DNA of 64,000 nucleotides from Nonomuraea dietziae (GTDB lineage: Bacteria; Actinomycetota; Actinomycetes; Streptosporangiales; Streptosporangiaceae): the NCBI RefSeq assembly GCF_014195505.1, contig NZ_JACIBV010000001.1:1674001-1738000 (forward strand). Reading direction: 5' to 3'. Under the pieces are notes generated by a model, which saw nothing but the letters and a program-made list of their open reading frames with translations, ran no database searches and was not told the DNA's origin. Positions 9,608 to 56,815 of the stretch are shown in pieces. How positions within the stretch are numbered: position 1 is the first letter of the stretch; every line of letters begins with the position of its first letter. Both the position numbers and the translations under genes were made by a program.

Positions 9608-9610
9608 CAA

Positions 9611-11282: not shown

Positions 11283-11421
11283 CGAGGGCTCCAAGGCATG
11301 GGGGAACTACTCACGACGCACGGCCGGGGCAGAAAGATCACTGAGCGCGTCACGTCGTCGCCGACGCCGCGCCAAGCCGCTTAATCGGCATCCTGGCAAG
11401 CGGTTCGGGCGGCTGTCAAGG

Positions 11422-11444
11422 AAGTTAGGAAACCTTCCTAACTT
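11422..11444. promoter_or_regulatory. Perfect 10-bp inverted repeat upstream of the secreted phosphoesterase
   Basis: AAGTTAGGAA (11422-11431), ACC, TTCCTAACTT (11435-11444). It is AT-rich against a GC-rich background and sits between the antiporter stop (11448) and the phosphoesterase start (11282). I recall similar palindromes upstream of secreted carbohydrate-active genes in actinobacteria, where they suggest a LacI/ROK-type operator. It could instead terminate the antiporter gene. Confidence 0.55.
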
Positions 11445-11447
11445 GAA

Positions 11448-13034: not shown

Positions 13035-13167
13035 GATCCGCAGCCTGGCACAACGGGCTCCGCGTGATCGCCAGGCGGAAACACCCGATCAGGAAACAAT
13101 CCCTCTTCTTGGGGGAGACATGTCGTCGCGACCGACCGACGCCCTGCGCGATCTTCCCCGGCTCGGA

Positions 13168-13743
13168 CTAGGCCAGACCCTTGCCCGTGCCCAGGCCCCG
13201 CAGCAGGGTGTCGACCAGGCGCGTGGCCAGGGTGTCGGCGTCGCCGTCGTGGCTCTGCGCCGCCTCGTGGATCAGCGCGTAGTAGACGCGCCTGGCCCAG
13301 TCAGGGTCGACGTCGGCGCGGAGCACTCCTGCGGCCTGGGCGCCGCGGAAGAGCCGGTCGCACCGCGCCTCCACCTCCGCGTGCACCCTGCCCACCTCGG
13401 GGTCGGACGACAGCGCCCTGCTCATCGCGAACCCCCAGTCGATCTTCACTCGCAGCACGTTCGCCGTGACCTGGTAGAGCGCGACCAGCGGAGGCGTGGT
13501 CTCGGGATGCGCGGCCTCCACGGCCGCGGCGAACTGCTTGGTCGCCCATCCCGCCATCGCGTCGACCAGCGCGTCCCTGGAGGCGAAGCGCCGGTGGACG
13601 GTCGTGCGCGCCACCCCCGCGGCCTCGGCGATCTGCTCCATGCTGGCCGCCGGGTTCTTGCTGAGCACCCGCTCGGCCGCCTCCAGGATCGTCCGTACGG
13701 TTCGCTCCGCGTCGGACCGCAGCGCACGCGTCGTCTCACTCAC
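13168..13743 (-). CDS. TetR family transcriptional regulator
   Basis: 191 residues. Helix-turn-helix at about residues 33-57 (SMEQIAEAAGVARTTVHRRF), and a helical ligand-binding C-terminal domain. Divergent from an SDR gene 111 bp away, with an inverted repeat between them, so it most likely represses that oxidoreductase and itself. The inducer is unknown. Confidence 0.9.
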   Translation of the reverse strand: MSETTRALRSDAERTVRTILEAAERVLSKNPAASMEQIAEAAGVARTTVHRRFASRDALVDAMAGWATKQFAAAVEAAHPETTPPLVALYQVTANVLRVKIDWGFAMSRALSSDPEVGRVHAEVEARCDRLFRGAQAAGVLRADVDPDWARRVYYALIHEAAQSHDGDADTLATRLVDTLLRGLGTGKGLA

Positions 13744-13779
13744 ACCCCTGATGTTACGTCATCGTGGCCAGTCAATTCG

Positions 13780-13805
13780 AACTTGCGTCATCGGTGTTGC
13801 AAGTT
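13780..13805. promoter_or_regulatory. Candidate TetR operator between regulator and SDR
   Basis: AACTTGC (13780-13786) and GCAAGTT (13799-13805) form an inverted repeat with a 12-bp spacer in the divergent intergenic region. GTCATCG occurs twice in the same region as a direct repeat. Placement fits a TetR operator; binding is inferred. Confidence 0.4.
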
Positions 13806-13854
13806 GTACGTTAACGGCATCGACATTGACGCAGCTAAGAGAGGTTTCACGACC

Positions 13855-14643
13855 ATGGATATGCGACTGTCCGGCAAGACCGCCGTCGTCACCGGCGCGA
13901 GCAGGGGCCTTGGCCTGGCCATCGTCAAGGCGCTGACCGGCGAGGGGATGCGGGTCGTGGCCGCCGCGCGGACGATCTCACCCGCGCTCGAGGAGAGCGG
14001 GGCGAGCGTGGTGGCGGTGGACCTGTCGACCGCGCGGGGGCCCGCCGAGCTGATCGACCAGGCGCTGGCCGAACTGGGCGACATCGATCTGCTGGTCAAC
14101 AACGTGGGCGGCGGCGACGTGGGCGAGGGCCAGCTCGACGGCTTCCTCGGCTTCGGCGACGAGCAATGGCAGCAGGCCTACGAGCTGAACTTCCTCAGCG
14201 CCGTGCGCGCCACGAGGGCCGCCATGCCGAGCCTGCTGCGCCGGCGCGGCTCGGTCGTCACCATCTCCTCCAACGGCGCCCGCATGCCGCACGCGGGACC
14301 GATCACCTACACCACCGCCAAGGCGGCGCTGACCGCGTTCGGCAAGGCGCTGGCCGAGGAGTTCGGCCCGCGCGGGGTACGGGTCAACACGATCTCGCCG
14401 GGCGCGGCGCGCACCTCGATGTGGGAGGACCCCGACGGCTACGGCGCCGCGCTCGCCGCCTCGCTCGGTCTCGAACACGACCAGCTCCTGGCGGCGCTGC
14501 CGTCGAGCACGGGGATGACGACAGGCCGGTTCGTCGAACCGGAGGAGGTCGCCGCACTGGTGACCTACCTGGCCTCACCGCACGCGGGAAGCGTCAACGG
14601 CGCCGACTACGTCATCGACGGCGGCGCCATCAAAACGGTCTGA
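13855..14643 (+). CDS. Short-chain dehydrogenase/reductase (SDR)
   Basis: 262 residues. Classical SDR features: nucleotide-binding TGASRGLG at about residues 14-21, NNVGG (an NNAG variant), active-site Ser in VTISSNGA, Y-T-T-A-K catalytic Tyr/Lys (ITYTTAKAAL), and the C-terminal VNGADYVIDGG. NAD(P)H-dependent oxidation or reduction of an unknown alcohol or ketone. Start ATG at 13855 follows an AGAGAGG site; an open frame extending further upstream is not coding. Partner of the divergent TetR gene. Confidence 0.9.
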   Translation: MDMRLSGKTAVVTGASRGLGLAIVKALTGEGMRVVAAARTISPALEESGASVVAVDLSTARGPAELIDQALAELGDIDLLVNNVGGGDVGEGQLDGFLGFGDEQWQQAYELNFLSAVRATRAAMPSLLRRRGSVVTISSNGARMPHAGPITYTTAKAALTAFGKALAEEFGPRGVRVNTISPGAARTSMWEDPDGYGAALAASLGLEHDQLLAALPSSTGMTTGRFVEPEEVAALVTYLASPHAGSVNGADYVIDGGAIKTV

Positions 14644-14755
14644 GCCGCGAGAGGCTGCGCGGGGGATGCCGGCCCCCGGGCGCGCCCCACGCCCGCGCGC
14701 CCCATGCCCACGCGCCCCGCGCCCCATGCCCACGCGCCCGGCGCCCGGCGCATCC

Positions 14756-14796
14756 CGGCGACAGAGCCGGCGCCAGGGCCGGCGGCTCTGTCGCCG
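14756..14796. terminator. Strong bidirectional hairpin between convergent SDR and PIG-L genes
   Basis: Perfect 14-bp arms (14756-14769 and 14783-14796) with a 13-nt loop, ending exactly at the stop codon of the convergent gene. The preceding 70 bp (about 14680-14750) is low-complexity, with GCGCCCCATGCCCAC-like units repeated. Confidence 0.7.
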
Positions 14797-15615
14797 CTAG
14801 CCGCGCAGGCCCGCGAACAGGTCGTCCTCGTGATCGGGTGCGGGGACCTTGCAGACCTTCCGCACGAAGGCCTCCGTGGAGAAGACGCGGTGCTGGGCCT
14901 CCTGCGGCATCTGCAGCAGGAAGATGCTGTCGCCCTGGCTGGCGTGCGCGCGCAACGCCTTCACCTTGTGCTCGACGTACGGCGAGACGTCGGCCACCGT
15001 GGTGATCAGCTCGTCGGGGGTGCCGAAGTCTTCGGGCAGCTCCAGCTCGTCCATCTCCATGCCCGAGGCCCGCATGTAGTCGAACATCTCCTGGACCCCC
15101 TTCCTCGACACGGCCGTGTAGTAGAGCTTGTCGGGGATGCCCGTCGACTCGGTGGCCGCCACCGCGATCCTGTGCGCCTGGATGTGGTCGGGGTGGCCGT
15201 AGCCGCCCTTCTCGTCGTAGGTGACCACCACCTGCGGCCTGTAGCGCTCCATCAACTCCGCCAACCTGGCCGCCGCGCGCTCCACCGGCACGTTCCAGAA
15301 GGAGTCGGGGTGGGCGTTGCCCTCCCAGCCGTCCATGCCCGAGTCGCGGTAGCCGAGCAGCTCGAGATGCTCGATGCCCAGGTGCGCCACCGACTCGCGC
15401 AGCTCGGTCAGCCTGCGCTCGGCGACGGCGGCGTCGTCGTGGGCGGGGTCGCCCGGCTTCACCCCGCCAGGCCCGTCACCCTGCTCACCGTTGGTGCAGG
15501 TGACCAGGACGGTCCTGATCCCCTCGGCGGCGTAGCGGGCGAGGATGCCGCCGGTGCCGATCACCTCGTCGTCGGGGTGGGCGTGCACGGCCATCACTGT
15601 CAACTGTCGATCCAT
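14797..15615 (-). CDS. PIG-L family (LmbE-like) deacetylase, possibly mycothiol-related
   Basis: 272 residues. Zinc-binding AHPDDE at residues 12-17 and the distal YGHPDHIQAH motif define the PIG-L family, which removes N-acetyl groups from GlcNAc-type sugars or cleaves mycothiol conjugates (MshB, Mca). Length and the motif order fit Mca/MshB-like enzymes, but I cannot separate these from other family members by eye. Start ATG at 15615 is chosen because the family motif follows immediately; the frame extends upstream without coding character. Confidence 0.85.
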   Translation of the reverse strand: MDRQLTVMAVHAHPDDEVIGTGGILARYAAEGIRTVLVTCTNGEQGDGPGGVKPGDPAHDDAAVAERRLTELRESVAHLGIEHLELLGYRDSGMDGWEGNAHPDSFWNVPVERAAARLAELMERYRPQVVVTYDEKGGYGHPDHIQAHRIAVAATESTGIPDKLYYTAVSRKGVQEMFDYMRASGMEMDELELPEDFGTPDELITTVADVSPYVEHKVKALRAHASQGDSIFLLQMPQEAQHRVFSTEAFVRKVCKVPAPDHEDDLFAGLRG

Positions 15616-15775
15616 CCCTGCATTCAACCTCACGACGCCGACATTTCCCCGGCAGGAGGGGTGCGCATTGGGAGTTCCCGCATTTCCCGGAAAAAGTGCG
15701 GAGCCGTCCGTATCGTTCATCTCACTGTGGAGTCGCACCGCCACAGAGGGTGATCGCGAGCCAGGGGAGGGCCGC

Positions 15776-16201
15776 ATGGTGGGTGGCTCAGGGCGTCACG
15801 GACCAGCGGGGCCGTACGCGGATGTCGTCCAGGACCGGAGGTTCCGCCTTCTCAGAACACGCTTCCGCCGTCTGGCGATCGGCATCGTCGCCTCCTTCCT
15901 CGGCTGGTACTTCCTCTACATCGCACTGTCGGCCTTCGCCCGCGACTTCATGGCCTATCCGGCCATCGGCAACATCAACGTCGCGCTGCTGCTCGGCATC
16001 CTGCAGTTCGTCTCCACCTTCGTCCTGGCCTGGCGCTACACCCGCTACGCGCGCAGAATGCTCGACCCGCTGTCGGCGCAGCTGCGCCAGGAGGCCGAGC
16101 AGCGCCAGGCCGACCTCGAGCGGCACGAGCAGATCCTGGCCGAACGCAGGCGCATCGAGAACTGGACACCCCAGCCGCGGCACGGAAGGCGGCGCCGATG
16201 A
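15776..16201 (+). CDS. DUF485 membrane protein, partner of the acetate symporter
   Basis: 141 residues: a hydrophilic N-terminus, two membrane helices (LAIGIVASFLGWYFLYIAL and INVALLLGILQFVSTFVLAW) and a charged tail rich in Glu/Arg that probably forms a coiled coil. DUF485 proteins are encoded immediately before SSS-family acetate permeases (YjcH-ActP arrangement). GGGGAGG precedes the ATG, and the stop overlaps the symporter start. Confidence 0.85.
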   Translation: MVGGSGRHGPAGPYADVVQDRRFRLLRTRFRRLAIGIVASFLGWYFLYIALSAFARDFMAYPAIGNINVALLLGILQFVSTFVLAWRYTRYARRMLDPLSAQLRQEAEQRQADLERHEQILAERRRIENWTPQPRHGRRRR

Positions 16202-17865
16202 GCGGGACGGTGCTGACCTTCGGCCTGTTCATCCTCTTCATCGTCATCACCCTCGTGGTCACGTTCTGGGTCAGGGGCAACACCCGCAGCGCCGAAGACT
16301 TCTACGCGGGCGGCAGGGCCTTCTCCGGGCCGCAGAACGGCCTGGCGCTGGCCGGCGACTACATGTCGGCCGCCTCCTTCCTCGGCATCGCGGGCATCAT
16401 CGCGCTGTCGGGCTACGACGGCTTCCTCTACTCGATCGGCTTCCTGGTCGCGTGGCTGCTGACGCTGCTGCTGGTGGAGCTGATGCGCAACGCGGGCAGG
16501 TTCACGATGGCCGACGTCCTGTCCTATCGCGTACGGCAGCAGCCGAGGGTCCGCGTGGCGGCGGTCGTGTCCACGGTCACCGTCTCGGTCTTCTACCTGC
16601 TGGCCCAGATGGTGGGCGCGGGCGCGCTGGTGTCGCTGCTGCTGGGCGTCTCCACCGACACCGCCAAGGTCGTCACGATCGTCGCGGTCGGCGCGATGAT
16701 GATCTTCTATGTGATGTTCGGCGGCATGAAGGGCACCACCTGGGTGCAGATCATCAAGGCCGTGCTGCTGATGTCGGGCACGATCGTGCTGACGGTGCTG
16801 GTGCTGGGCAGGTTCGGGTTCAACCTGAGCGAGATGCTGGGCGCCGCCGCCAAGGCCAGCGGCCAGCCCGACTTCCTGCGGCCCGGGGTCAGGTTCGGCC
16901 AGGACGTCGAGGGCGATCCCGTCAGGACGCTGCTGAACAAGCTCGACTTCATCAGCCTCGCCCTGGCGCTGGTCCTGGGCACGGCGGGCCTGCCGCACAT
17001 CGTCACCAGGTTCTTCACCGTGCCCGACGCCCGCGCCGCCCGCGCCTCGGTCAACTGGGCGATCGGCCTGGTCGGCGTCTTCTACCTGATGACGCTGGCG
17101 CTGGGCTTCGGCGCCACCGCCCTGGTCGGGCGCGAGGCGATCACCGCGCAGGACCCCGCGGGCAACACCGCCGCCCTGCAGCTGGCGCAGGTGCTGGGCG
17201 AGTACGTCGGAGGGCCCGTCGGCGGCGACCTGATGCTCGCCTTCATCGGCGCGGTCGCCTTCGCCACCATCCTCGCGGTGGTCTCGGGCCTGGTCATGGC
17301 CTCCTCCACCTCCCTCGCCCACGACTACTTCGGCCACGTGCTGATGTTCGGCAGGCCGAGAGAGTCGCAGGAGGTCGGGGTTGCGCGCCTGTCCGCCCTG
17401 GTGATCGGGCTGCTGGCGGTCGTGCTCGCGGTGGTCGCCCGGCACCAGAACGTCGCCTTCCTGGTGGCGCTGGCCTTCGCGATGGCGGCCTCGGCGAACC
17501 TGCCCGCGATCGTGCTGTCGTTGTTCTGGAAGAGGTTCAACTCCACCGGCGTCGTCGCGGGGGTGTACGGCGGGCTGTCCGGGTCGCTGCTGCTGGTGTT
17601 CTTCTCCCCCGTCGTGTCGGGGAAGGTCGACCCGGTCACCGGGGCCAGCCTGTCGCTACTCCCCCGTGGCGTCGATTTCGCCTTCTTCCCGATGGAGAAC
17701 CCCGGCCTGGTGTCGATCCCGCTCGGCTTCGTCTGCGCGGTCGCCGGAGCGTTGCGGAGCAGGGAGCAGCCCGACACCGACAGGTTCGACGAGCTGTCGG
17801 TCCGCTCCCTCACGGGGACCGGCGCGCACCGGGCCCCGACGAGGGGAACACGGCGGCAGCACTAG
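16198..17865 (+). CDS. actP: Cation/acetate symporter (SSS family, ActP-like)
   Basis: 555 residues, 13 or so membrane helices. Family motifs include RSAEDFYAGGRAFSGPQNGL, GDYMSAASFLGIAG, the helix LGTAGLPHIVTRFFTVPDAR and the later SLFWKRFNSTG. Na+- or H+-coupled uptake of acetate or similar short carboxylates. The start overlaps the DUF485 gene (ATGA). The stop codon TAG lies within the CTAG at the left edge of the IS982-type element; the same CTAG stands at the other edge, so insertion did not change the protein. Confidence 0.92.
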   Translation: MSGTVLTFGLFILFIVITLVVTFWVRGNTRSAEDFYAGGRAFSGPQNGLALAGDYMSAASFLGIAGIIALSGYDGFLYSIGFLVAWLLTLLLVELMRNAGRFTMADVLSYRVRQQPRVRVAAVVSTVTVSVFYLLAQMVGAGALVSLLLGVSTDTAKVVTIVAVGAMMIFYVMFGGMKGTTWVQIIKAVLLMSGTIVLTVLVLGRFGFNLSEMLGAAAKASGQPDFLRPGVRFGQDVEGDPVRTLLNKLDFISLALALVLGTAGLPHIVTRFFTVPDARAARASVNWAIGLVGVFYLMTLALGFGATALVGREAITAQDPAGNTAALQLAQVLGEYVGGPVGGDLMLAFIGAVAFATILAVVSGLVMASSTSLAHDYFGHVLMFGRPRESQEVGVARLSALVIGLLAVVLAVVARHQNVAFLVALAFAMAASANLPAIVLSLFWKRFNSTGVVAGVYGGLSGSLLLVFFSPVVSGKVDPVTGASLSLLPRGVDFAFFPMENPGLVSIPLGFVCAVAGALRSREQPDTDRFDELSVRSLTGTGAHRAPTRGTRRQH

Positions 17866-18870
17866 ATGAATGAGTCCAAGGCGTAGCTGCGGAGATAGGG
17901 CGAGGGCGCCCACCCTCAGTTTGTGACGACCAAGTTGGACACCCTCGCAACCGCACTGTATGTGAAGGTCGATGATCTACTGAAGGCCTCACCAGGCCTG
18001 GCCCCGTGGCGGCCGAAGACAGGTATCGGGCCCACGCTCAGCGACGCCGAACTGGTGACCTTGGCGGTCATGTCAGCGTTGCTGGGCTTCGTCTCCGAAC
18101 GACGCTGGCTGCGCTATGCCCACGCCGAACTGGGCGGGATGTTCCCTTACCTGCCCGGACAGTCGGGGTACGGCAAACGGCTACGGAAGGCATCGGGGCT
18201 GGTCCTGCACATCATCAGGATGTTGGCCGCCGACACCACGCTGTGGAGCGACGATGTGTGGGTCGTCGACTCCACCCCGGTGGAGTGCGGCCGCTCCCGC
18301 GATACCGCTCGGCGCAGTGACCTGGCCGGGTGGGCCGAGTACGGCTACTGCGCCAGTCACTCCCGCTATTTCTGGGGGCTGCGGTTACATCTGCTGTGCA
18401 CCCTGGGCGGGCTGCCGGTGATGTTCGCCCTCACCGGCGCCAAGGCCGATGAGCGCCACACCCTGCTCGGGATGCTCGATGCCGCTCCCGAGGTGGTGGC
18501 CGGCCATCCGGGCCAGTCGATCATCGCCGACCGGCAGTACTACGGGCGGGACTTCGAGCACGCGCTGACCGAGCGTGATCTGCGCCTGCTGCGACCGGCC
18601 CGCCAGGGCGAAAGCGAGCGGGCCGGAGCGCGGCTGTTCAAACCGCTACGCCAGACCATCGAATCGATCAACCAAACCTTCAAGGGCCAGCTCGACCTGG
18701 AACGCCACGGGGGCCGGACCCCAGCCGGCGTCCTCATCCGCGTGCTGTCCAGGATCCTCGCGCTGACCACCGTGATCTGGCACAACGACAAGACCAGCCA
18801 GCCGATCAAACGATCCCTGATCGCCTACGACCACTGAACGTGACCATACGCCTTGGACTCATTCATCTAG
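17862..18870 (+). mobile_element. Intact IS982-family insertion sequence
   Basis: About 1.0 kb. Perfect terminal inverted repeats at 17862-17885 and 18847-18870 (24 bp including an outer CTAG at each end; 20 bp without it). One transposase gene fills the element. The two CTAG copies may be a 4-bp target duplication or part of the palindromic ends; they cannot be told apart because CTAG is self-complementary. Identical ends and an open transposase suggest recent insertion. Confidence 0.92.
17923..18837 (+). CDS. IS982 family transposase
   Basis: 304 residues and complete. N-terminal LSDAELVTLAVMSALLGF and FPYLPGQSGYGKRLRK are hallmarks of IS982-family DDE transposases. Catalytic Asp in WVVDSTPVECGRS, a second acidic motif at IIADRQYYGRDF and the Glu in ESINQTFKGQLDLERHGGRT. 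It would catalyse movement of its own element. Flanked by the perfect terminal repeats. Confidence 0.95.
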   Translation: MTTKLDTLATALYVKVDDLLKASPGLAPWRPKTGIGPTLSDAELVTLAVMSALLGFVSERRWLRYAHAELGGMFPYLPGQSGYGKRLRKASGLVLHIIRMLAADTTLWSDDVWVVDSTPVECGRSRDTARRSDLAGWAEYGYCASHSRYFWGLRLHLLCTLGGLPVMFALTGAKADERHTLLGMLDAAPEVVAGHPGQSIIADRQYYGRDFEHALTERDLRLLRPARQGESERAGARLFKPLRQTIESINQTFKGQLDLERHGGRTPAGVLIRVLSRILALTTVIWHNDKTSQPIKRSLIAYDH

Positions 18871-20431: not shown

Positions 20432-20740
20432 TCAGGGGCGGAAGCCGGGCAGGTGCGCTCGCAGGTAGGGGGCGGTGCGGCTGCCTGGGACGGCGGCCAC
20501 CTCCTCGGGCGTGCCCTGGGCGACGATCGTGCCGCCCTGCTCGCCGCCGCCCGGCCCCAGGTCGATGACGTGGTCGGCGGCCAGGATGACGTCGAGATCG
20601 TGCTCGACGACGACCACAGTGGCGCCGCCGTCCACGAGGGCGCCGAGCTGGCGCATCAGCACCTCGGTGTCGGCGGGGTGCAGCCCCGCGGTCGGCTCGT
20701 CCAGCAGGTAGAGGGTGCTGGCCCGCTCGGTCCCCGACGG
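20432..20740 (-). pseudogene. C-terminal fragment of a UvrA-like ABC ATPase
   Basis: About 100 residues containing the UvrA C-terminal Walker B region ([20 protein letters not shown]), the switch [20 protein letters not shown] and the G-rich end [20 protein letters not shown], ending at the natural stop 20434-20432. Everything N-terminal of this is missing: at about 20740 the sequence changes to a resolvase fragment on the opposite strand. A matching UvrA N-terminal piece on the same strand lies 7 kb upstream (27661-27852). Consistent with a drug-resistance-type UvrA paralogue that was disrupted. Confidence 0.85.
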
Positions 20741-20991
20741 TTCGAGGCCGACCTGCTGAAGATGCGCACCCGCGAGGGCATGGCAATCGCCCGCTCGCGC
20801 GGCAAACTCAAGGGCAGGCAACCCAAACTCACCGCCCGCCAGCAAGCCGAACTGGTCCGGATGCACGCCACCAGCAGCTACACCATCGCCGACCTGATGG
20901 AGCTCTTTCCGTCGGCCGCGCCGCCGTCTACCGCGTCCTGGACCCCCCGGGCCGACCCGACGAACAACTCGACAATCAGGCAGTGTCGTGA
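20741..20991 (+). pseudogene. C-terminal fragment of a serine recombinase (Tn3-type resolvase/invertase), frameshifted
   Basis: The plus strand reads FEADLLKMRTREGMAIARSRG, KLKGRQPKLTARQQAELVRM and YTIADLMELF, the end of the serine-recombinase domain and the linker to the DNA-binding helix-turn-helix. One missing T near 20909 shifts the frame; the helix-turn-helix then continues in another frame (VGRAAVYRVLDPPGRPDEQL...) to TGA at 20989-20991. The catalytic N-terminal domain is absent. It marks the left edge of the inserted region in the UvrA-like gene. Confidence 0.85.
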
Positions 20992-21400
20992 ACACCTCGC
21001 TCGATCCAACCGCACGGTCATCGTCGTGGTGATGGTGGCGTCTTGGGGTTGCTGGTGCCTCGATAGAGGGACGGCGTAAATAGGCCTTTGACCTGCCCGT
21101 AACTACGGGTGGATACTTCCCTGCGGGCGCGGTCCACGAGTCCACGGCACGGCAATGAGGGCCGGCCGTCACCTATGATCGATATCGCTCGAACGTCCGT
21201 CGTCGACTCGTTCCACGTCCCCGGCTGGGATGCGCGGCGCCGCCCCGACGGGTCGGCGCATATGTCTTTGGCGGAGCGGGCTCCAGAGCGCCCGAGCCGC
21301 CGCAGGGGAACGAGGTGGTAAGGGTGCCGCAGCGCACGGTCGTACCGACAGGCGGGCACGCTCCGGTCGGTGAATCCTACGTTGTCTCCCTAGGCGGAGC
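20992..21400. other. Intergenic region before the histidine kinase
   Basis: No credible gene on either strand; the open frames here have poor codon character. The stretch probably holds the promoter of the histidine kinase at 21401, but I see no clear -35/-10 pair or terminator. Confidence 0.4.
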
Positions 21401-22798
21401 ATGAGGCGACCACGAGGATTCAGGGGCCCGCGACTGGGACTGACGCGCCTCACGATTGCGGCGAGTGCGGTGCTCGCCTTGTTGATAGGTGTCGCGTTCG
21501 CGGTCCTGCTGTGGGCGATCGCTGACGCCAACAGCTCCACATCGGCGAGACGGGCTTCTCGGACGGCTCTCGTCGAAGTCGGCAATCTGGAACAACTGGT
21601 CCTCGACCTCGAGACAGGGCAGCGCGGCTTCCTGATCACCAAGCGTGAGGAGTTTCTCCAGCCGTGGCAGGCGGCGCGCAAGGAGTTCCCGGCGCAGGCG
21701 CGGAGGTTCACCGAAACCGCTACCTCCCCCGAACAGCGGCGCATCGCCGAACAGATCACGCACGGCGCCGACTCGTTGGTGAGCGACTACTCGGTTCCGC
21801 TGGTGGAGGCGGTGCGGCGAGGGGATCCCGCCGCATCCGGTCTGGCGGCGACGGCCGAGGGCAAGCGGCGCGTCGATGCCCTGCGCGCTCAGTTCGACCA
21901 GTACACGGCGGGCGAACGCGCCCAGCTCGCGGCGCGTGAAGACACCGCAATGGCCAACGGGCGGCGGGCGGTGATTGCGGCAGGTGCGGGGCTGGCGGCA
22001 TCGACCGCGCTGGTGGCCGCGTTCACGGTGCTCCAGCACCGGGCCGTCGTGCGGCCCGTCCGGGGGGCGGCTGCCGCGGCGGAGCGGCTCGCCGACGGGG
22101 ACCTCGGAGTGCGGATCGTCCCGAGCAAGGTGGCGGAGATCGGCGCGTTGGGCACGTCCTTCAACTCCATGGCGGCCTCATTGCAGGACAGCCGCAGGCG
22201 CATCATGGAAAGCGTCGAGGAGGTACACCGACGCACGGCTCGGGACCTGCACGACGGGGCGCAGCAACGACTCGTCAGCCTGATGATCGGGCTCCGGCTT
22301 GTACGGGAGCTGGTCCCCGATGCGGAACCGTCCACCACCGAGCTGCTGGACCAGTCGATCGCCGACGCGCAGACGGCGATCGATGAGCTGAGGGAGCTGG
22401 CGTCGGGGATCTACCCTCTCGTGCTGACGGTGAAGGGGCTGGTGGCGGCGGTGCAGGACCTGGCGTCCCGCAGTCCGATCCCCGCCGTCGTCGAAAGCGA
22501 CTTTGACCAGAGGATTCCCGCGGCCGTTGAATCGAACGCCTATTTCGTCGTGGCGGAAGCCGTGACGAACGCGGTCAAGCACGCCCAGGCATCCCGGATC
22601 GACATCTTCCTGGAGTTCGGAGAGGCACTGCAGATTCGGGTCGTCGACGACGGCGTCGGCGGTGTGAACGCCGCCACCGCCGGCAGCGGCCTGACCGGGC
22701 TGGCCGATCGGCTGGCCGCCTTCGATGGCACGTTGACCATCGAGTCGCCCCTGGGCGGCGGCACGACGATCCTGGCGCAGATCCCGATACCGCCCTGA
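21401..22798 (+). CDS. Sensor histidine kinase with CHASE3 sensor and HisKA_3 core
   Basis: 465 residues. Membrane helix at about 15-40, extracellular CHASE3-like domain (LEQLVLDLETGQRGFLITKR) to about 185, a second helix (VIAAGAGLAASTALVAAFTV), a HAMP-like linker (RLADGDLGVRIVPSKVAEIG), the HisKA_3 phosphoacceptor His284 in ARDLHDGAQQRLVSL, and a HATPase domain (ESNAYFVVAEAVTNAVKHA, VVDDGVGG). NarL-type two-component sensor. The following gene encodes a receiver-only protein and the convergent gene a NarL regulator, so the three may form one circuit. Codon usage looks less GC-extreme than most of the window. Confidence 0.93.
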   Translation: MRRPRGFRGPRLGLTRLTIAASAVLALLIGVAFAVLLWAIADANSSTSARRASRTALVEVGNLEQLVLDLETGQRGFLITKREEFLQPWQAARKEFPAQARRFTETATSPEQRRIAEQITHGADSLVSDYSVPLVEAVRRGDPAASGLAATAEGKRRVDALRAQFDQYTAGERAQLAAREDTAMANGRRAVIAAGAGLAASTALVAAFTVLQHRAVVRPVRGAAAAAERLADGDLGVRIVPSKVAEIGALGTSFNSMAASLQDSRRRIMESVEEVHRRTARDLHDGAQQRLVSLMIGLRLVRELVPDAEPSTTELLDQSIADAQTAIDELRELASGIYPLVLTVKGLVAAVQDLASRSPIPAVVESDFDQRIPAAVESNAYFVVAEAVTNAVKHAQASRIDIFLEFGEALQIRVVDDGVGGVNAATAGSGLTGLADRLAAFDGTLTIESPLGGGTTILAQIPIPP

Positions 22799-22817
22799 GG
22801 CCGCTTAAGGACGAACC

Positions 22818-23231
22818 GTGGGGTTGGCCCCATGGCCTGCACGTGCTCCCGTCGGAGACGCTGGTTTGGTGCCAGTCAACGTGGTGGTCGTCGACGACGA
22901 CCCCGGATTCCGTCGCATCGCCAGGGCTCTGCTGGCCGCGCGAGGGCTGCGGGTCGTCGCCGAGTCGCCGGACGGGGCATCGGCGATCGCGGCGGTCCGA
23001 GAACACCGCCCTGACGGCGTGCTGCTCGATCTTCATCTTCCGGGCGAGGACGGGCTGTCCGTCGCCCGAGCGCTCACCCGAGAGGGGCAATCGCTGAGGA
23101 TCGTGCTGACCTCCACCGACTCTTGGACGTGGTCGGAGGAGGAACTGGCCAGTGCCGGAATCCTGCGCTTCGTGGCCAAGGACCGGCTGTTCGACACCGA
23201 CCTGATCGCTCTGTTCTCGCCTACCGCTTGA
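22818..23231 (+). CDS. Receiver-domain-only response regulator
   Basis: About 137 residues, one REC domain and no output domain. VVVVDDDPGF supplies the acidic pocket, Asp71 in LLDLHLPGEDG is the phosphoacceptor, and ILRFVAKDRL contains the conserved Lys. GTG at 22818 is chosen because AAGGA lies 6 bases upstream; GTG at 22869, directly before the domain, is the alternative. 19 bp after the histidine kinase, so probably cotranscribed. Could act as a phosphate sink or through protein-protein contacts. Confidence 0.85.
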   Translation: MGLAPWPARAPVGDAGLVPVNVVVVDDDPGFRRIARALLAARGLRVVAESPDGASAIAAVREHRPDGVLLDLHLPGEDGLSVARALTREGQSLRIVLTSTDSWTWSEEELASAGILRFVAKDRLFDTDLIALFSPTA

Positions 23232-23880
23232 GGTAGCGCAGCACGGCGAGAACACGGCGGTGCTGTGAGTATTCGGTCTGCTGCAAGCCCAGCTTGAGGA
23301 AAATGCCGGTCACGTGGCGCTCCACCGCCGGAACCGTCACCACAAGCTTGTCGGCGATGCCGGAGTTGGAATGCCCCTCGGCCATCAACGCCAGGACCTC
23401 ACGCTCCCGGGGAGTCAACCTCTCCAGCGGGTCCGCGGCGCGCCGGCGGCTGACGAGCGTGGCGATGACGTCCGGGTCGAGCGCCGAACCGCCGGCGATG
23501 ACCCGCTGCACCGCGTCCATGAGGACCTGCGGGCTGGCGACCTTCTCCTTGAGCAGGTAACCGACGCCACTCGGATCGTCTCCGACGAGATCGAGGGCGA
23601 AGGAGGCTTCCAGGAACTGCGACAGCACGATCACCGGCGTGCCCGGCCGCTCCGCCCGGATCCGGCGCGCCGCCTGAAGTCCGTCGTCGGCCAGGTTTGG
23701 CGGCATCCGGATGTCGGCGATCACCACGTCCGGCTTGTGCTCCGCGGCGGCGCTGACCAGTTCCACGGCGTTGGAGACCGACGCGACGACCTCGACGCCG
23801 GACCGCTTCAGCATGGCCGTGATGCCCTCACGGACGATTGGCTGGTCTTCTCCGAGCACTGCACGCAGGGGCCCGCTCAT
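23221..23880 (-). CDS. NarL/LuxR family response regulator
   Basis: 219 residues. REC domain with acidic pocket GEDQ and phosphoacceptor Asp56 (VVIADIRMPP), then a LuxR-type helix-turn-helix (LTPREREVLALMAEGHSNSG, VPAVERHVTGIFLKLGL). DNA-binding output partner for a HisKA_3 kinase, most plausibly the one at 21401. Convergent with the receiver-only gene, overlapping its 3' end by 11 bp. Confidence 0.92.
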   Translation of the reverse strand: MSGPLRAVLGEDQPIVREGITAMLKRSGVEVVASVSNAVELVSAAAEHKPDVVIADIRMPPNLADDGLQAARRIRAERPGTPVIVLSQFLEASFALDLVGDDPSGVGYLLKEKVASPQVLMDAVQRVIAGGSALDPDVIATLVSRRRAADPLERLTPREREVLALMAEGHSNSGIADKLVVTVPAVERHVTGIFLKLGLQQTEYSQHRRVLAVLRYLKR

Positions 23881-24106
23881 GCAGGCATCCTAGTCGGCGG
23901 CGCCGACCCGGTCGGATCGGGCGGGGACGCCGGTTCCTCTCAGGCGCACCGTGGGGTTTTCCCCAGGGACGGTCTCGGGGTGGCCGACACAGGGTTTGAA
24001 GGCGGCTCGACAGCCGTCCGGATAGCCCCTGACCAGACTGGAAGGCATCCAAGGCGGCTCCCTGCAGAGCTCCGTTCAGTCGTCGCCCCTTTAGTGGAGG
24101 AGCATC

Positions 24107-24340
24107 ATGTCTGTGACGTTCACGCCGGTCACCGCCCGTACGAGCGGCCGCGGCGGCCGTGAGCGCTGCACCTCGATGCACTTCGTGCAGGGAGTTGGTT
24201 GTGGAGGCGTGACTCCACAACTGTGGCTGGCCGTGCTTTCCGTACCGCCCTCCGGCGCTCGCCGCGCGTACAACCAGTGCGCCGAACTCGTGCTGTCCGG
24301 AGAGCACACAGTCCGTGCTGCGTCACGCCCCAAGGCGTGA
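24107..24340 (+). CDS. Possible 77-residue leader ORF upstream of two alpha/beta hydrolases
   Basis: ATG at 24107 is preceded by GGAGGAG at good spacing. The product (MSVTFTPVTARTSGRGG...) resembles nothing I know, and codon bias is weak. Its stop lies inside a strong hairpin at 24321-24342, directly upstream of the hydrolase operon. The rest of the gap from 23881 shows no gene. It may be a leader peptide or chance. Confidence 0.3.
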   Translation: MSVTFTPVTARTSGRGGRERCTSMHFVQGVGCGGVTPQLWLAVLSVPPSGARRAYNQCAELVLSGEHTVRAASRPKA

Positions 24341-24342
24341 CG
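24321..24342 (+). terminator. Strong hairpin in the leader of the hydrolase operon
   Basis: CGTCACGCC (24321-24329), loop CCAA, GGCGTGACG (24334-24342): perfect 9-bp stem with a tetraloop, 40 bp before the hydrolase start codon and spanning the stop of the small upstream ORF. It could terminate the upstream transcript or act as an attenuator. No U-tract follows. Confidence 0.5.
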
Positions 24343-24381
24343 GTTCAAGGCTCGACCCAAGGTCTCAAGAAAGGGATATTT

Positions 24382-25098
24382 ATGTCCGAGACTCCCACTA
24401 TCGTGCTTGTGCACGGCGCCTTCGCCGATGGCGCCAGCTGGGCGCCCGTGACGCTGCGGCTGCTCGACCAGGGCTACAAGGTTCTCGTACCCCCCGTCTT
24501 CAACCGCAGCCTGTCCGGCGACTCGGCTTACATCAAGTCGTTCGTCGAGCAGATCGATGGGCCGGTCATCCTCGCCGGCCACTCCTACGGGGGCGCCGTC
24601 ATCACGGTCGCTGGTGTCGCCGACAACGTCGTCGGGCTGGTCTACGTGTCTGGGTACGCCCTCGAGGAGGGCGAGAGCCTGGGACAACTGCAGGGCGGAT
24701 TCCCCGATTCTGAGCTCGCGGCGAACCTCGCCTACTCTCCCTACCCGATCGAGAGCGGCGAGCCCGGCACGGATGTGTCGGTGAACATCGACGCCTTCCC
24801 CGCCGTGTTCGCCGCCGGTGTCAACACAGACAAGGCGAAGGTGCTCGCGGTATCGCAGCGGCCTCTATCGGCGATCGCGTTCGGAGAGCCCGCATCAGTG
24901 GCCGCGTGGAAGACCAAGCCGGGCTGGGGGATTGTCTCCAGCGCCGACCGCACCATCAATCCCGATGTCGAGCGCTTCGGTTACACGCGGGCCGGCTTGC
25001 GGAAGGTGATCGAGATCGACGCCCCTCACCTGGTGATGCAGACCCACTCGGCCGAGGTGGCGACGTTCATCACCGACGCGATCGCCGAACTCGGCTGA
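24382..25098 (+). CDS. Alpha/beta hydrolase (esterase/haloperoxidase-like)
   Basis: 238 residues. Oxyanion loop VLVHGAFADGASW, nucleophile elbow GHSYGG with Ser68, and a late His in IEIDAPHLVMQTHSAEV. It matches the common alpha/beta fold hydrolases related to EstC/salicylate esterases. ATG at 24382 follows AAAGGGA. Codon usage has more A/T at third positions than neighbouring chromosomal genes, in keeping with an acquired segment. 34 bp before a second hydrolase gene. Confidence 0.9.
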   Translation: MSETPTIVLVHGAFADGASWAPVTLRLLDQGYKVLVPPVFNRSLSGDSAYIKSFVEQIDGPVILAGHSYGGAVITVAGVADNVVGLVYVSGYALEEGESLGQLQGGFPDSELAANLAYSPYPIESGEPGTDVSVNIDAFPAVFAAGVNTDKAKVLAVSQRPLSAIAFGEPASVAAWKTKPGWGIVSSADRTINPDVERFGYTRAGLRKVIEIDAPHLVMQTHSAEVATFITDAIAELG

Positions 25099-25132
25099 CA
25101 TCCAACCTGACACAGAAGGAGTAAAGGCGATC

Positions 25133-26095
25133 ATGGCAGGAAACCCCTTGGGCATCTCGCTTGAGAAGGCGGCACAGGAGTTCGTCGATGCGACCTCGGA
25201 GCCCCCATTTCTCTACCAGCTTGCTCCAGAGGCGGGCCGCAAGGCCGTCGACGGAGTGCAGGACAGTCCGATCTTCAAACCTGAGATCGACGAAGAGTGG
25301 ATCACCGTCGACGGCGGCCCCACCGGTTCGGTGAAGGTCCGCATCGTCAAGCCCCGAGGCGCCGTCGGAACCCTCCCGGTGATCATCTACACCCACGGCG
25401 CAGGCTGGGTGTTCGGCGACGCGCACACCCACGACCGCCTCGTCCGTGACCTGGCTGTCGGCGCGAACGCGGCCGTGGTCTTTCCCGAGTACGACCGTTC
25501 CCCAGACGTGCACTACCCGGTCGCGAACGAGCAGTCCTACCGCGTAGCTCAGTGGGTCACCACCGATGGCGTCGGGAAGGGGCTGGACTCTTCAAAGATC
25601 GCTATTGCCGGCGACTCGGTCGGCGGCAACATGGCCATCGCATTGACGCTTATGGCGAAAGAGCGCGGTGACGTCTCGTTCGTGCAGCAGGTGCTGTTCT
25701 ACCCCGTGACCGACGCCAACTTTGACACCGCTTCGTACGCGGAGTTCGCCGAAGGGTACTTCCTCACCCGCGAGGGGATGAAGTGGTTCTGGGACCAGTA
25801 CACCACCAGTGAGCAGGACCGCGCACAGATCACGGCCTCGCCACTGCGCGCTACCACCGAGCAGTTGACCGGCCTGCCGCCCGCACTGATCATCAACGCG
25901 GAAGCTGACGTTCTGCGGGACGAGGGGGAAGCGTTCGCAGGCAAGCTGCGCGAGGCGGGCGTTCCCGTCACACAGGTTCGGTACGCGGCGATCATTCACG
26001 ACTTCGTGATGGTCAACTCCATGCATGACACTCACGCCGCCAAGGCTGCCATCGCGCAGGCCGTCGCCGTGCTCAAGGAAGCCCTGCACGGCTGA
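25133..26095 (+). CDS. Alpha/beta hydrolase fold-3 (HSL-type esterase/acetylhydrolase)
   Basis: 320 residues. Oxyanion motif HGAGW at 88-92 (a variant of HGGGW) and nucleophile motif GDSVGGN with Ser162 define the hormone-sensitive-lipase family. The acid residue is in NAEADVLRDEGE and the His in AAIIHDFVMVNSM. Hydrolyses esters of unknown nature in the cytoplasm. AGAAGGAG precedes the ATG, and the gene forms an operon with the hydrolase upstream, ended by a strong terminator at 26103-26139. Confidence 0.92.
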   Translation: MAGNPLGISLEKAAQEFVDATSEPPFLYQLAPEAGRKAVDGVQDSPIFKPEIDEEWITVDGGPTGSVKVRIVKPRGAVGTLPVIIYTHGAGWVFGDAHTHDRLVRDLAVGANAAVVFPEYDRSPDVHYPVANEQSYRVAQWVTTDGVGKGLDSSKIAIAGDSVGGNMAIALTLMAKERGDVSFVQQVLFYPVTDANFDTASYAEFAEGYFLTREGMKWFWDQYTTSEQDRAQITASPLRATTEQLTGLPPALIINAEADVLRDEGEAFAGKLREAGVPVTQVRYAAIIHDFVMVNSMHDTHAAKAAIAQAVAVLKEALHG

Positions 26096-26102
26096 CTCAC
26101 AC

Positions 26103-26139
26103 GTCAGTGCCGGGTCGACATCGCCGTCCCGGCACTGAC
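26103..26139 (+). terminator. Terminator hairpin after the hydrolase pair
   Basis: GTCAGTGCCGGG (26103-26114) pairs with CCCGGCACTGAC (26128-26139), perfect 12-bp arms and a 13-nt loop, 8 bp after the stop codon. Confidence 0.75.
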
Positions 26140-26706
26140 TCCACCATTCCCGGCGACGCCGGGACGGCTGTCCTCTCGTTCCTCGACCCCGGCATTGGAG
26201 CCGCTGTGGCGTCGAACGATCCGCATCGCGCAGGAGCAGACCAATGACCGTGTGGGGCGTCGCCTGGTCACGTCTTCGTGACGGACAGCACCCCGTAGCC
26301 ACGGGATCGTCATCGGCCTGGGTGGCTTGGTCGGTCTGGTAGGCGCGGTGGTCGCGTTACGCCGTACCCTGCCGTTGCCCGGCCTGGACGTCCGGCCTGG
26401 ACGTCCGGCCTGGCCTGGCCGCGTCGACCAACCCGGCCGGCGCGGCGACTGCCGAAGAACGGTCGCCGGTTCGGCTGGTGTCGCTGCCGCGACGGTCTGC
26501 CCGCAGCTTCGTCGGCCGCCAGGACGCGATCTCGGCCAGCCGCGCGGCACCGCCTGCGCGTCGTGCACTGCGCTGCGAGCGCCCAGCAGCACCTGTACGG
26601 GCACGGACAGCTCACGCACCTACTCGTCGGTATAGGTGGGCGGCATGGGCAGCCGCCGGCGGAAAGACCGGCCGGAGGCTCCCGCCTCCGTCGTGCGGAG
26701 GCGGGA
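26140..26706. other. Gene-poor stretch with decayed coding fragments
   Basis: No intact gene. The minus strand around 26480-26620 reads VPVQVLLGARSAVHDAQAV, then in another frame RLAEIASWRPTKL, which resembles the tail of an alpha/beta hydrolase with a frameshift. The plus strand near 26310-26370 reads a hydrophobic stretch (VIGLGGLVGLVGAVVALRRT). GGCCTGGACGTCC is tandemly repeated at about 26380-26410. The whole looks like scar DNA next to the IS256 remnant. Confidence 0.4.
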
Positions 26707-27390
26707 TCAGATGGTCTCGATCGCCTGCGGCAGCCCCTTCAGACCGTCGCAGACCACCATCAGCGCATCACCGACGCCGCGGTTCTTGATCTCGGTCAGC
26801 ACGTGCAGCCAGAACGTCGCGCCCTCACCGCCATCGCCGGCCCACAGCCCGAGGATGTCGCGCTCGCCGTCGACGGTGACCGCCATGGCCAGGTAGATGG
26901 GCCGGTTGGCGACCTGGCCGTCGCGCAGCTTGACGTGCACGGCGTCGATGAAGATCACCGGGTAGACGGCATCCAGCGGCCGGTTCTGCCACTCGGCCAT
27001 CCCCTCTAGGACCTTGTCGGTGATGGTGGAGATGGCCTGCTTGGACACCTCGGCACCGTAGACCTTGGCCAAATACGCGGAGATCTCCCCGATGGTCAGC
27101 CCCTTGGCGGCCAGAGAGATGACCATCTCGTCCACGCTGGACAGCCGGCGTTGCCGCTTGCGGACGATCTTCGGCTCGAAGCTGCCGTCCCGATCGCGGG
27201 GCACGCTGATCTCCACCGGCCCCACATCGGTGAGCACGGTCTTGGCCCTGCTGCCGTTGCGCGAGTTACCCGCCCCGCGACCAGCCGGATCGTGCTTGTC
27301 GTGGCCGAGATGGTCGGTGATCTCGCCTTCCAGCGCTGCGCCGCATGGGCCATGAGCCCTGCCAGGACGGCCACGGTCAGATGAGAGCAT
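26707..27390 (-). pseudogene. IS256 (Mutator) family transposase, truncated
   Basis: 227-residue open frame against about 400 for a full enzyme. It retains ALEGEITDHLGHDKHDPAG, NSRNGSRAKTVLTDVGPVEI, the first catalytic Asp region YPVIFIDAVHVKLRDGQV and the second near ALMVVCDGLKGLPQAIE, then stops where the family normally continues with the third catalytic region. The N-terminal 50-80 residues are also missing or out of frame. No terminal repeats found. Inactive remnant. Confidence 0.88.
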
Positions 27391-27399
27391 TGCCGCGGC

Positions 27400-27655
27400 T
27401 CATCGGTAGGCGAGGCGGCGCAGCAGGATCTCCGCAGGCCCCCGGTAGCCGGCTCGGCGCATGAACTCGGCGAGAGCGACGGACACCACCCAGGTGGCCG
27501 CGGCCACCCCCGTGGCGCCGGCCAGCCCGAGGTCGTCCTGCAACGCGAACCCGTACGGGTAGAAGACCAGGACGAACACCACGGACTGGAAGAGATAGAG
27601 GCTCACCGAGCGCCGGCCGAGCGCCTGGACGGCGGTGGTGAAACGGTTCGGCCGC
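27400..27655 (-). pseudogene. C-terminal fragment of a DUF418 membrane protein
   Basis: About 85 residues: FTTAVQALGRRSVSLYLFQS, two membrane segments and the end GPAEILLRRLAYR, typical of the C-terminus of DUF418 proteins. The N-terminal three quarters is missing; just upstream the sequence switches to a UvrA-like Walker A fragment on the same strand. Not expected to be functional. Confidence 0.75.
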
Positions 27656-27660
27656 CCGAC

Positions 27661-27852
27661 TCGGCGTAGAGGGTGCCGAAGGCCAGCGACGACTTGCCCG
27701 AGCCCGACACGCCGGTCGGCCGGCCGGGATCGCGATCAGCCCTCCAGGTAGCGGCGGAAGGCGACCAGGGCGTCGCGCGGCATGACGACGTCCACGCCAC
27801 GCAGGTTGTGCACCCTCGCGCCGCGTACCCGGACGTACTGGTCAGGCTCCAT
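27661..27852 (-). pseudogene. N-terminal fragment of a UvrA-like ABC ATPase
   Basis: ATG at 27852 reads MEPDQYVRVRGARVHNLRG and VDVVMPRDALVAF, the canonical UvrA N-terminus, then RRYLEG and a stop (27738-27736). After about 20 more bases the Walker A region continues, TGVSGSGKSSLAFGTLYAE, at 27717-27661, out of register. So about 40 foreign bases interrupt the gene between DALVAF and TGVSG, and the gene ends altogether at 27660. The missing middle and a C-terminal piece (20432-20740) suggest one disrupted gene. Confidence 0.85.
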
Positions 27853-27960
27853 GCGCACGACGTTACCGGGCCCCGTCCAAGATTCTTCCAAGATTTTTCC
27901 GGCCGGATGTCGAGAAAGGGGCCCCGGTTTCTACGTCTCCTGTGAAAAGGAGGAACAGTG

Positions 27961-28758
27961 ATGGAAACGCTGGTCAGTGGGGGCGCGTTCTTCGAGGGGG
28001 CGCGCTGGCACGAGGGGCGCCTGTGGGTCTCGGACTTCTGGCGCTACCAGGTCTTCGCGATCTCGATGGACGGCACGGCCGAGCCCGTCGCCGAGGTGCC
28101 CGGCGCGCCGTCCGGTCTCGGGTGGCTGCCCGACGGCGACCTGCTCGTGGTCTCGATGATGGACAACAAGCTCCTCAGGGTGAGCGAGGGCAAGGCGGTG
28201 GAGTACGCCGACCTGTCGCCGTACAGCACGCAGTTCAGCAACGACCTGGTGATGGACGGCCACGGCCGCGCCTACGTCGGGACCATCGACTTCGCCGGGC
28301 CCGACACCGTCCTGCTGCGGGTCGACCAGGACGGCTCGGTCACGGTGGTCGCGGAGGGGATGCGCTTCCCCAACGGCATGGTCATCACCGACGGGGGCGC
28401 GACGCTGGTCGTCGCCGAGTCGTGGGCGGGGCGGCTGACCGCCTTCGACCTCGCCCCCGACGGATCGCTGGGCGGCAGGCGCACGTGGGCGCAGCTGCCC
28501 GAGGGCAGCGCGCCCGACGGCCTGGCGCTCGACGCGGACGGCACGATCTGGGCGGCCGACGCGGGCGGCAACAGAGCCGTCAGGGTCCGTGAGGGCGGCG
28601 AGATCGTCGACGAGGTCAGCGCGGGCGAGCTCGGCGTCTTCGCCTGCGCGCTGGGCGGGGGCGACGGGCGCACGCTGTTCCTGTGCACGGCGCCCGACGC
28701 GAACAAGGCCGCCGAGCAGCGCGAGGGGAGGATCCTGTCGGTGCGGACGCGGCCATGA
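27961..28758 (+). CDS. SMP-30/gluconolactonase/LRE family protein
   Basis: 265 residues, six-bladed beta-propeller. Metal-ligand Glu in FFEGARWHEGRLWVSD, Asn/Asp positions in FSNDLVMDGHGRAYVG, FPNGMVITDGGATLVVAES and SAPDGLALDADGTIWAA fit the SMP-30 lactonase family. Probably hydrolyses a sugar or other lactone, or acts on a related substrate. AAGGAGG at 27947-27953 precedes the ATG. Stands alone right of the UvrA N-terminal fragment. Confidence 0.9.
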   Translation: METLVSGGAFFEGARWHEGRLWVSDFWRYQVFAISMDGTAEPVAEVPGAPSGLGWLPDGDLLVVSMMDNKLLRVSEGKAVEYADLSPYSTQFSNDLVMDGHGRAYVGTIDFAGPDTVLLRVDQDGSVTVVAEGMRFPNGMVITDGGATLVVAESWAGRLTAFDLAPDGSLGGRRTWAQLPEGSAPDGLALDADGTIWAADAGGNRAVRVREGGEIVDEVSAGELGVFACALGGGDGRTLFLCTAPDANKAAEQREGRILSVRTRP

Positions 28759-29892: not shown

Positions 29893-29953
29893 CGCGCCCC
29901 AGGGTAGCCGAGCAGGTGGAGAGGGACGCCGCCCGCTAGAGTTCGTGTCCACC

Positions 29954-30706
29954 ATGATCGAACGAACCGGTTCCGTCGCGCTGGTGACGGGAGCCTCCAG
30001 AGGACTCGGCGCCGCTCTCGCCAGGCGACTGGCCGCCGACGGTTGGACGGTGGCCGTCAACTATCGTTCGGGCGCCGAGGCGGCTCGAGCGGTGGTCGAG
30101 GAGATCAGGCGAAAGGGCGGCGCCGCCGAGGCGTTCGCCGCCGACGTCACTGACGAGGAGTCGGTCACGACACTGTTCGCCGAGGTCGGCAGGGCGCTGG
30201 GCCCCGTGGAGGTCGTCGTCGCCAACGCCACGGGCCCGCAGCCGAGCATCACGGTCGAGGAGCTCACCTGGCAGGGGCACCTGGACCAGCTGCTGTTCTT
30301 CGTCAAGAGTCCGACCCTGCTGCTGCGCGCCGCGCTGCCCGCGATGAAGGCGAGAGGGCGGGGACGGCTGATCCAGATCGGCTCCGACAGTTTCGCTCGC
30401 GCCCTGCCCGGCATGTCGGCCTACGTCGCCGCCAAGGGGGCGCAGCTCGGCCTGACCAGGTCGTGGGCGCGCGAGCTTGGCCCCCACGGCATCACCGTCA
30501 ACCTCGTGGCGCCCGGCTGGATCCCGGTCGAGCGGCACGCGGACCTGCCCGCCGATGAGCTGGCCGCCTACGTCGCGGAGACGCCGGTGCGCAGGACGGG
30601 CACCCCTGAGGACGTGGCCGCGGTGGTCTCCTTCCTCGCCTCCGACGCGGCGGGGTTCGTCAACGGCGAGCAGATCACCGTCAACGGCGGTCACACCGTC
30701 ACCTGA
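29954..30706 (+). CDS. Short-chain dehydrogenase/reductase (FabG-like)
   Basis: 250 residues. TGASRGLG dinucleotide motif at 12-19, ANATG in place of NNAG, catalytic Ser in QIGSDSF, Tyr/Lys in SAYVAAKGAQ, and the C-terminal FVNGEQITVNGGHT. NAD(P)-dependent oxidoreductase resembling 3-oxoacyl-ACP reductases. ATG at 29954 is used; GTG at 29945 is an alternative. 26 bp upstream of the 2H/MazG/Nudix gene, so possibly cotranscribed. Confidence 0.88.
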   Translation: MIERTGSVALVTGASRGLGAALARRLAADGWTVAVNYRSGAEAARAVVEEIRRKGGAAEAFAADVTDEESVTTLFAEVGRALGPVEVVVANATGPQPSITVEELTWQGHLDQLLFFVKSPTLLLRAALPAMKARGRGRLIQIGSDSFARALPGMSAYVAAKGAQLGLTRSWARELGPHGITVNLVAPGWIPVERHADLPADELAAYVAETPVRRTGTPEDVAAVVSFLASDAAGFVNGEQITVNGGHTVT

Positions 30707-30731
30707 CCGCGCGAGGAGAGGAGCGAACGGC

Positions 30732-54795: not shown

Positions 54796-54805
54796 CGTCC
54801 CTCCT

Positions 54806-55081: not shown

Positions 55082-55083
55082 GG

Positions 55084-55883: not shown

Positions 55884-55887
<4 letters not shown>
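55084..55887 (-). CDS. glpQ: Glycerol ABC transporter permease (MalG-like)
   Basis: 267 residues, six helices. NEDILGSFSLIPQRVTLENY, NSILYTSMNAVMSLIVALPA and the EAA motif EIDETAAIDGYSLPRFFIRI are typical. Partner of the permease encoded just upstream (ATGA overlap). Confidence 0.87.

Positions 55888-56815
<928 letters not shown>

Follow-up and report, generated by a model that had tools for sequence, protein, structure and literature searches.

The question that this locus raises is how a gene of the UvrA family came to stand with its two ends some 7 kb apart around a set of unrelated genes and gene fragments, and whether that DNA arrived as one mobile element or piece by piece. The locus lies in a 64,000-nucleotide stretch of Nonomuraea dietziae (hereafter the window: positions 1,674,001 to 1,738,000 of contig NZ_JACIBV010000001.1, or C1, of 8.95 Mb), in a genome (G000) of 10.24 Mb that is assembled in three contigs and is 99% complete. 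The reading that we favor, at somewhat better than even confidence, is that of a UvrA2-like gene without its middle, whose ends flank DNA pieces captured by illegitimate end joining at breaks, probably after the split from the sister species. Searches covered 54 genomes of the genus and 341 of the family, the latter with the C-terminal stub of the gene as query; genomes, contigs and loci that must be told apart bear G, C and L numbers, G001 being the closest genome searched.

What remains of the gene is two collinear stubs, here the N-stub and the C-stub, which align to about residues 77–128 and 754–864 of an intact homologue with an 865-aa frame (L106), so that ~630 residues between them are absent; the original prediction, which had the ends in correct order and orientation and about 600 residues missing, holds in this respect. 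The similarity of the C-stub extends from 20432 to 20718 by comparison with G001 or to 20725 by comparison with L106, its protein read ends in SRTAPYL, and it is 76% identical in amino acids (aa) to a G290 protein across residues 8–102. The N-stub (27852–27657, minus strand) consists of two pieces with a 40-bp insert between them (27756–27717) that shifts the frame: its protein reads MEPDQYVRVRGARVHNLRGVDVVMPRDALVAF before these 40 bases and TGVSGSGKSSLAFGTLYAES after them. Neither stub is long enough for a Pfam match, and their identity rests on pairwise matches. The open frame at this gene is 246 aa in the window and 429 aa in G001, intact in neither, and these two are the only exceptions among 30 loci from the C-stub search, the other 28 having stop-to-stop frames of at least 782 aa. 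The UvrA2-like function has likely been lost from the window's gene. Short frames occur lower in the same match list too, in G148 (508 aa) and G304 (383 aa).

The two ends do not come from different UvrA subfamilies: in a panel of 12 proteins (seven relatives picked via the C-stub and five paralogues from the same genome) all three stub pieces rank L101, L102, L106 and L107 first, with small margins for the short N-stub pieces. In a tree of 32 rows, from which L102 and 9 of 28 further loci were left out and in which the C-stub fills 26% of the columns, the C-stub groups with the G001 gene (support 99/94) inside a UvrA2-like clade, the gene of G040 being nearest to this pair (94/96) and the five own paralogues falling outside; the N-stub pieces were too short for the tree and take their subfamily from the panel ranking. 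The intact homologues L106, L101 and L102 have the UvrA DNA-binding domain PF17755, and the UvrB-interaction domain PF17760 was not found in them (at a limit of 1e–6 for L101 and L102), as in the group of Deinococcus radiodurans UvrA2, whose structures are 2vf7 and 2vf8 (so named in PMC10192343). The best solved relative is 2vf7, at 1083 bits for an intact homologue and 557 bits for the half-gene of G001. Unlike D. radiodurans UvrA2, the gene is broken in both the window and G001. The supposition that it was of a drug-resistance type was not borne out: the UvrA-like self-resistance proteins, as Ecm16 (7sh1) and DrrC are described in parts of PMC10192343 and PMC10413001, include in Ecm16 a protein that shares the UvrA fold without the UvrB-binding domain (stated there for Ecm16, PMC10192343), but the intact homologue is less similar to it, at 468 bits to 7sh1 against 1083 to 2vf7. 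One UvrA of this genome, L048 on contig C2 (0.917 Mb), carries both PF17755 and PF17760 and is the only own UvrA among those fetched with the UvrB-interaction domain, for which reason C2 may be a chromid or a chromosome piece rather than a dispensable plasmid.

Between the stubs we recovered the predicted recombinase, IS256 (insertion sequence, IS) and DUF418 fragments and the predicted cargo of a histidine kinase, two regulators and two hydrolases (Table 1); the order at the N-stub edge needed correction, since from the N-stub inward the DUF418 tail comes before the IS256 slice. The nearest relatives differ from piece to piece. The recombinase tail (20740–20942) has no Pfam match, several more DNA matches annotated 'recombinase family protein', and a 73% match on the genome's own contig C3, the contig that also holds an intact 440-aa frame to which the IS256 slice is 93.6% identical in DNA. 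A block of kinase, two regulators and hydrolase spans 21080 to about 26070, and its part 21080–24157 is 88% identical in DNA to Thermocatellispora tengchongensis; in that species and in two Streptomyces the block lies between a LysR gene and SDR genes, which do not accompany it here. This recurring cluster (LysR, CHASE3 kinase, two response regulators, hydrolase, SDR) was seen in L084, L085 and L086 around 8700–16700, with other frames intervening in L085. The kinase, at E ≤ 1e–70, occurs in 9 of the 54 genus genomes, namely its own, G018 (85%) and seven others (43–48%), and was not found in G001 by this search; horizontal gain of the block would be the simplest reading. The second hydrolase in the block (24379–25098) is likely a separate insertion: it is 74.5–75.5% identical in DNA to Arthrobacter and Deinococcus plasmids, and window positions 24157 and 25177 adjoin in L084, the exact edge being unsure. 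The hydrolase at 25133–26095 scores 281 bits to the NCBIfam model LipP1, below its cut-off of 350. The 47 bp at 26145–26191 match sequence that lies immediately 3' of another recombinase fragment (L051), and the kinase block could therefore have landed inside a recombinase-bearing piece. Nonomuraea gerenzanensis recurs as a relative of several pieces of the locus. No source was found for 20943–21079, 26096–26707 (0.6 kb) or 27337–27395 (59 bases). A perfect hairpin (26680–26706, 11-bp arms and a 5-base loop) adjoins the IS256 slice at its 3' edge.

The cargo is deviant in composition. As predicted, third-position GC (GC3) is low in the five cargo genes, at 0.74–0.88 against 0.895–0.976 in seven neighboring genes (0.846 in a nearby IS transposase), and in tetranucleotide distance the segment lies beyond every flank stretch of the window of the same size: 0.246 for 21080–26070 (maximum 0.220 in 78 overlapping stretches) and 0.219 for 20740–27640 (maximum 0.179 in 70). 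The lowest GC of the window is shared by 25001–26000 and 54001–56000 (0.63–0.65). The captured kinase, regulator and hydrolase frames are intact and may work.

Comparison with a related genome, which had been proposed as a check, gave a twofold answer: the same locus without the window's segment does exist, but the gene there is not intact either. G001 gives the best C-stub match outside the window's own genome (85% aa), and the two genomes share the gene order nud, rsmC, uvrA, RibD_C, methyltransferase, actP, the neighbors being 86–96% identical in protein (names are short labels on Pfam matches: MTS for rsmC, SSF for actP, 2'-5' RNA ligase plus NUDIX for nud, RibD_C). The G001 copy is arranged differently. 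Its N-stub has a 1-base deletion and stops within the Walker A codons, and between this point and the second half of the gene (347 codons) stand 2.45 kb of unrelated DNA. In this DNA a glyoxalase gene lies inside 537 bp that match an Embleya plasmid at 95.3% identity; there is also a frame that gave no Pfam match, and a TetR/ABM pair whose identity to Streptomyces atratus is 78%. The best match of this cargo to that of the window is only E 0.014 over 67 bp. The ABM and TetR genes have a perfect 14-bp inverted repeat between them (L100:9282–9313), possibly an operator. That the patchwork is an assembly error we find scarcely credible: nothing was found in its favor, the window's genome is in three contigs, and the sister's different patchwork lies inside a 9.57-Mb contig.

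Table 1. Features of the disrupted UvrA2-like gene and of the DNA between its ends (window coordinates)
Feature	Position	Strand	Evidence
UvrA2-like C-stub, end of second nucleotide-binding domain	20432..20718	-	89% DNA identity to the G001 gene at the syntenic place (27 of 255 nt differ)
3' part of recombinase (resolvase-type) gene without start, beside C-stub	20740..20942	+	81% DNA identity to Streptomyces sp. NBC_00376 plasmid
CHASE3-HAMP-HisKA_3 sensor histidine kinase, intact frame	21401..22798	+	Pfam
Single-domain response regulator	22818..23231	+	Response_reg; also 3' of the kinase in L084, L085, L086, L099
NarL/LuxR-type response regulator	23221..23880	-	Response_reg and GerE; 93% aa in L084
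Alpha/beta hydrolase (extra)	24379..25098	+	Abhydrolase_6; missing from the block in L084–L086
Alpha/beta hydrolase, part of the kinase block in relatives	25133..26095	+	Abhydrolase_3; 72% aa in L084
Internal slice of IS256 transposase, cut at both ends	26708..27336 (629 bp)	-	Profile positions 36–242 of 379
3' end of DUF418 gene, flush with N-stub	27396..27656	-	DUF418; 80% DNA identity to Nonomuraea gerenzanensis
UvrA2-like N-stub, second piece, with Walker A	27657..27716	-	91% aa over 23 residues to L101, L102
40-bp insert in N-stub	27717..27756	-	First 15 bases are RRYLE codons
UvrA2-like N-stub, first piece, with start codon	27757..27852	-	92% DNA identity to G001 over 27757–27879; 66–83% aa to four best relatives

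The original prediction had a transposon or integrative element with kinase and hydrolase cargo replacing the gene's center and then decaying. The lost center and the other-origin DNA stand; a single element does not, and we consider it quite improbable. It would account for the recombinase piece at one edge and the IS256 piece towards the other, for the deviant composition of the cargo, and for an 11-bp direct repeat near both edges. The segment has no intact recombinase, however, the recombinase gene lacking its start and the IS256 piece being an internal slice; the kinase block belongs to the longer LysR–SDR cluster in three relatives; and no enclosing inverted repeats were found, the longest inverted match, sought up to 40 bases from either outer edge, being 7 bp in the window (reached in 173 of 300 shuffles) and likewise 7 bp, at chance level, in G001 (112 of 300), against 24 bp (0 of 300) in an IS control. 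A listing of inverted repeats across the locus gave only short pairs, none placed at the ends. A direct repeat above chance was not found at the G001 edges (6 bp, 266 of 300), in a test that also missed the 4-bp duplication of the IS control and that is weakened as a test of target duplication by loss of the gene center. The 11-bp repeat of the window (C-stub start 20708–20718 and N-stub 27666–27676, ten bases from the DUF418 joint) is reached in 3 of 300 shuffles and codes for TLY of uvrA on both sides; the corresponding places share 7–10 of 12 bases in seven intact relatives and 11 in the window. It is less likely a target duplication, because the N-stub continues in uvrA sequence past it, and may have served as microhomology. 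A single decayed transposon was rejected on the separate nearest relatives, the truncated mobile genes and the lack of any enclosing inverted repeats among those found. The IS that served as control is intact, lies nearby (17866–18866) and is absent from G001; it encodes a DDE_Tnp_1 transposase and has inverted ends of 20 bp and a CTAG duplication of 4 bp.

We favor capture by end joining over one transposon because the pieces have separate nearest relatives, their mobile genes are truncated, two joints are flush and the G001 cargo is different. In this process one or more chromosome breaks in the UvrA2-like gene would have been the start; DNA pieces, several of them likely foreign, would have entered by illegitimate, error-prone end joining, in repeated captures rather than with one mobile element; and the gene's center would have been lost separately in the lineages of the window and of G001. 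Both genomes have a Ku gene. The flush joints are those between UvrA and DUF418 in the window and between UvrA and the glyoxalase block in G001. The 40-bp insert of the N-stub, absent from G001, may be a further trace. Its first 15 bases occur exactly in L105, L106 and L107 at the homologous place, directly after LYAEAQ or VYAEAQ (BLAST E 0.027), which in the intact gene is right after the second N-stub piece, i.e. 3' of the break. These 15 of the 40 bases thus match the gene's own homologous place, the remaining bases have no convincing source, and 31 of the insert's bases occur once in the window's own genome. It is the position of the match, not its score, that would speak for it, and the scrambled order would be expected from copied filler or from a local duplication accompanied by deletions.

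Whether the gene was lost once or twice is a separate matter. Of the changes between the window and G001 in the 85 C-stub codons, 19 are synonymous and 8 nonsynonymous (w 0.134, Fisher p 1.1e–6), a strong constraint close to that of actP (0.148); rsmC, RibD_C, methyltransferase and nud are less constrained (0.26–0.38). Had the gene been dead since the common ancestor, its C-stub should be less constrained than this, and for this reason we favor two later losses; taken with the unrelated pieces that break the gene in G001, this makes it probable that each lineage lost the gene for itself, once the species had split. The alternative, which we rate as rather unlikely, is a single break near the Walker A codons that predates the split, after which the insert was swapped and enlarged in each lineage. 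It gains from the left joints, at nt 129 of the gene in G001 and nt 156 in the window (two random places would lie that close in ~2.4% of cases), and from the first half beyond the break being missing from both copies; against it, no joint or cargo is common to the two, and the small lesions of their N-stubs differ (40-bp insert against 1-bp deletion).

Several points weigh against independent capture by end joining. Both left joints lie within the first 160 nt of a ~2300-nt gene (~0.5% for two random places) and within 28 nt of each other, a closeness that could reflect one old break. Synonymous change in the C-stub is 27%, against 14% in four flanking genes pooled (p 0.009), and the two gene copies may therefore have different histories. 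The N-stub is uninformative and does not show constraint: of its 28 codons, 4 have synonymous and 3 have nonsynonymous changes. As to mechanism, breaks and their joining are read from the products rather than observed, and the presence of Ku alone proves no path. Flush joining is not demonstrated for most of the joints, since 20719–20739, 20943–21079, 26096–26707 and 27337–27395 have no assigned source; the 15-base match in the insert (E 0.027) is no better than an 18/19 match of another part of it to L091; and the 11-bp direct repeat at the edges could pass for a target duplication. Finally, only two of the genomes searched hold the locus. An rsmC match was present in nine genomes, of which the window's own and G001 alone kept the locus; no C-stub relative (E ≤ 1e–15) was found in the seven other rsmC regions or in the six methyltransferase regions fetched (from 40 genomes with a methyltransferase match), and with an SMP-30 gene as synteny anchor the fetched relatives (G015, G038, G019, G017 and G033) were all non-syntenic.

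The surroundings vary as well. The segments of the SMP-30 gene (27880–28752) and of an SDR gene (29908–30727) are absent from G001, where 2 bases stand between the flanks of the former and 59 bases of other sequence replace the latter. The gap between actP and rsmC probably gained genes earlier too, because the actP and rsmC matches are 135 bp apart in G015, with no space for other genes, and are separated by ~4 kb of other genes in G051; the remaining five genomes that have an rsmC relative gave no actP match inside the fetched 18 kb.

Among the papers listed in a literature search there was none on this locus. The closest parallel is DNA capture in Streptomyces ambofaciens, for which the part of PMC5869714 on healed breaks gives inserts of 30 bp to 18.8 kb, the 42-bp and 83-bp ones derived from close by and the 30-bp one a piece of a transposase gene. 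The likeness lies in the range from tens of bases to many kilobases, the short nearby-derived inserts and the transposase-gene slice. In that work I-SceI produced the breaks and the cell's own genome supplied the inserts, and the authors speculated that foreign DNA could integrate likewise; here the events are natural, the pieces foreign-looking, and one gene in two sister species is concerned. The locus is a clear natural member of this known kind of event, and what is new is that the sister copy is also broken, with other cargo. A bolder extension, which we think unlikely to hold, is that the 5' P-loop segment of the UvrA2-like gene would be a recurrent break-and-capture hotspot that takes in foreign DNA by end joining, each sister species loading new regulatory or catabolic cargo without mobile-element machinery.

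If capture by end joining is the right reading, the locus would be a natural case of DNA capture at breaks, in which the same gene took in different pieces in two sister species and whose scars can be read to the base at some joints. It would then offer a testable site for how actinomycete chromosomes gain genes with neither transposon nor phage, and would exemplify the likely parallel loss of a UvrA2-type gene.

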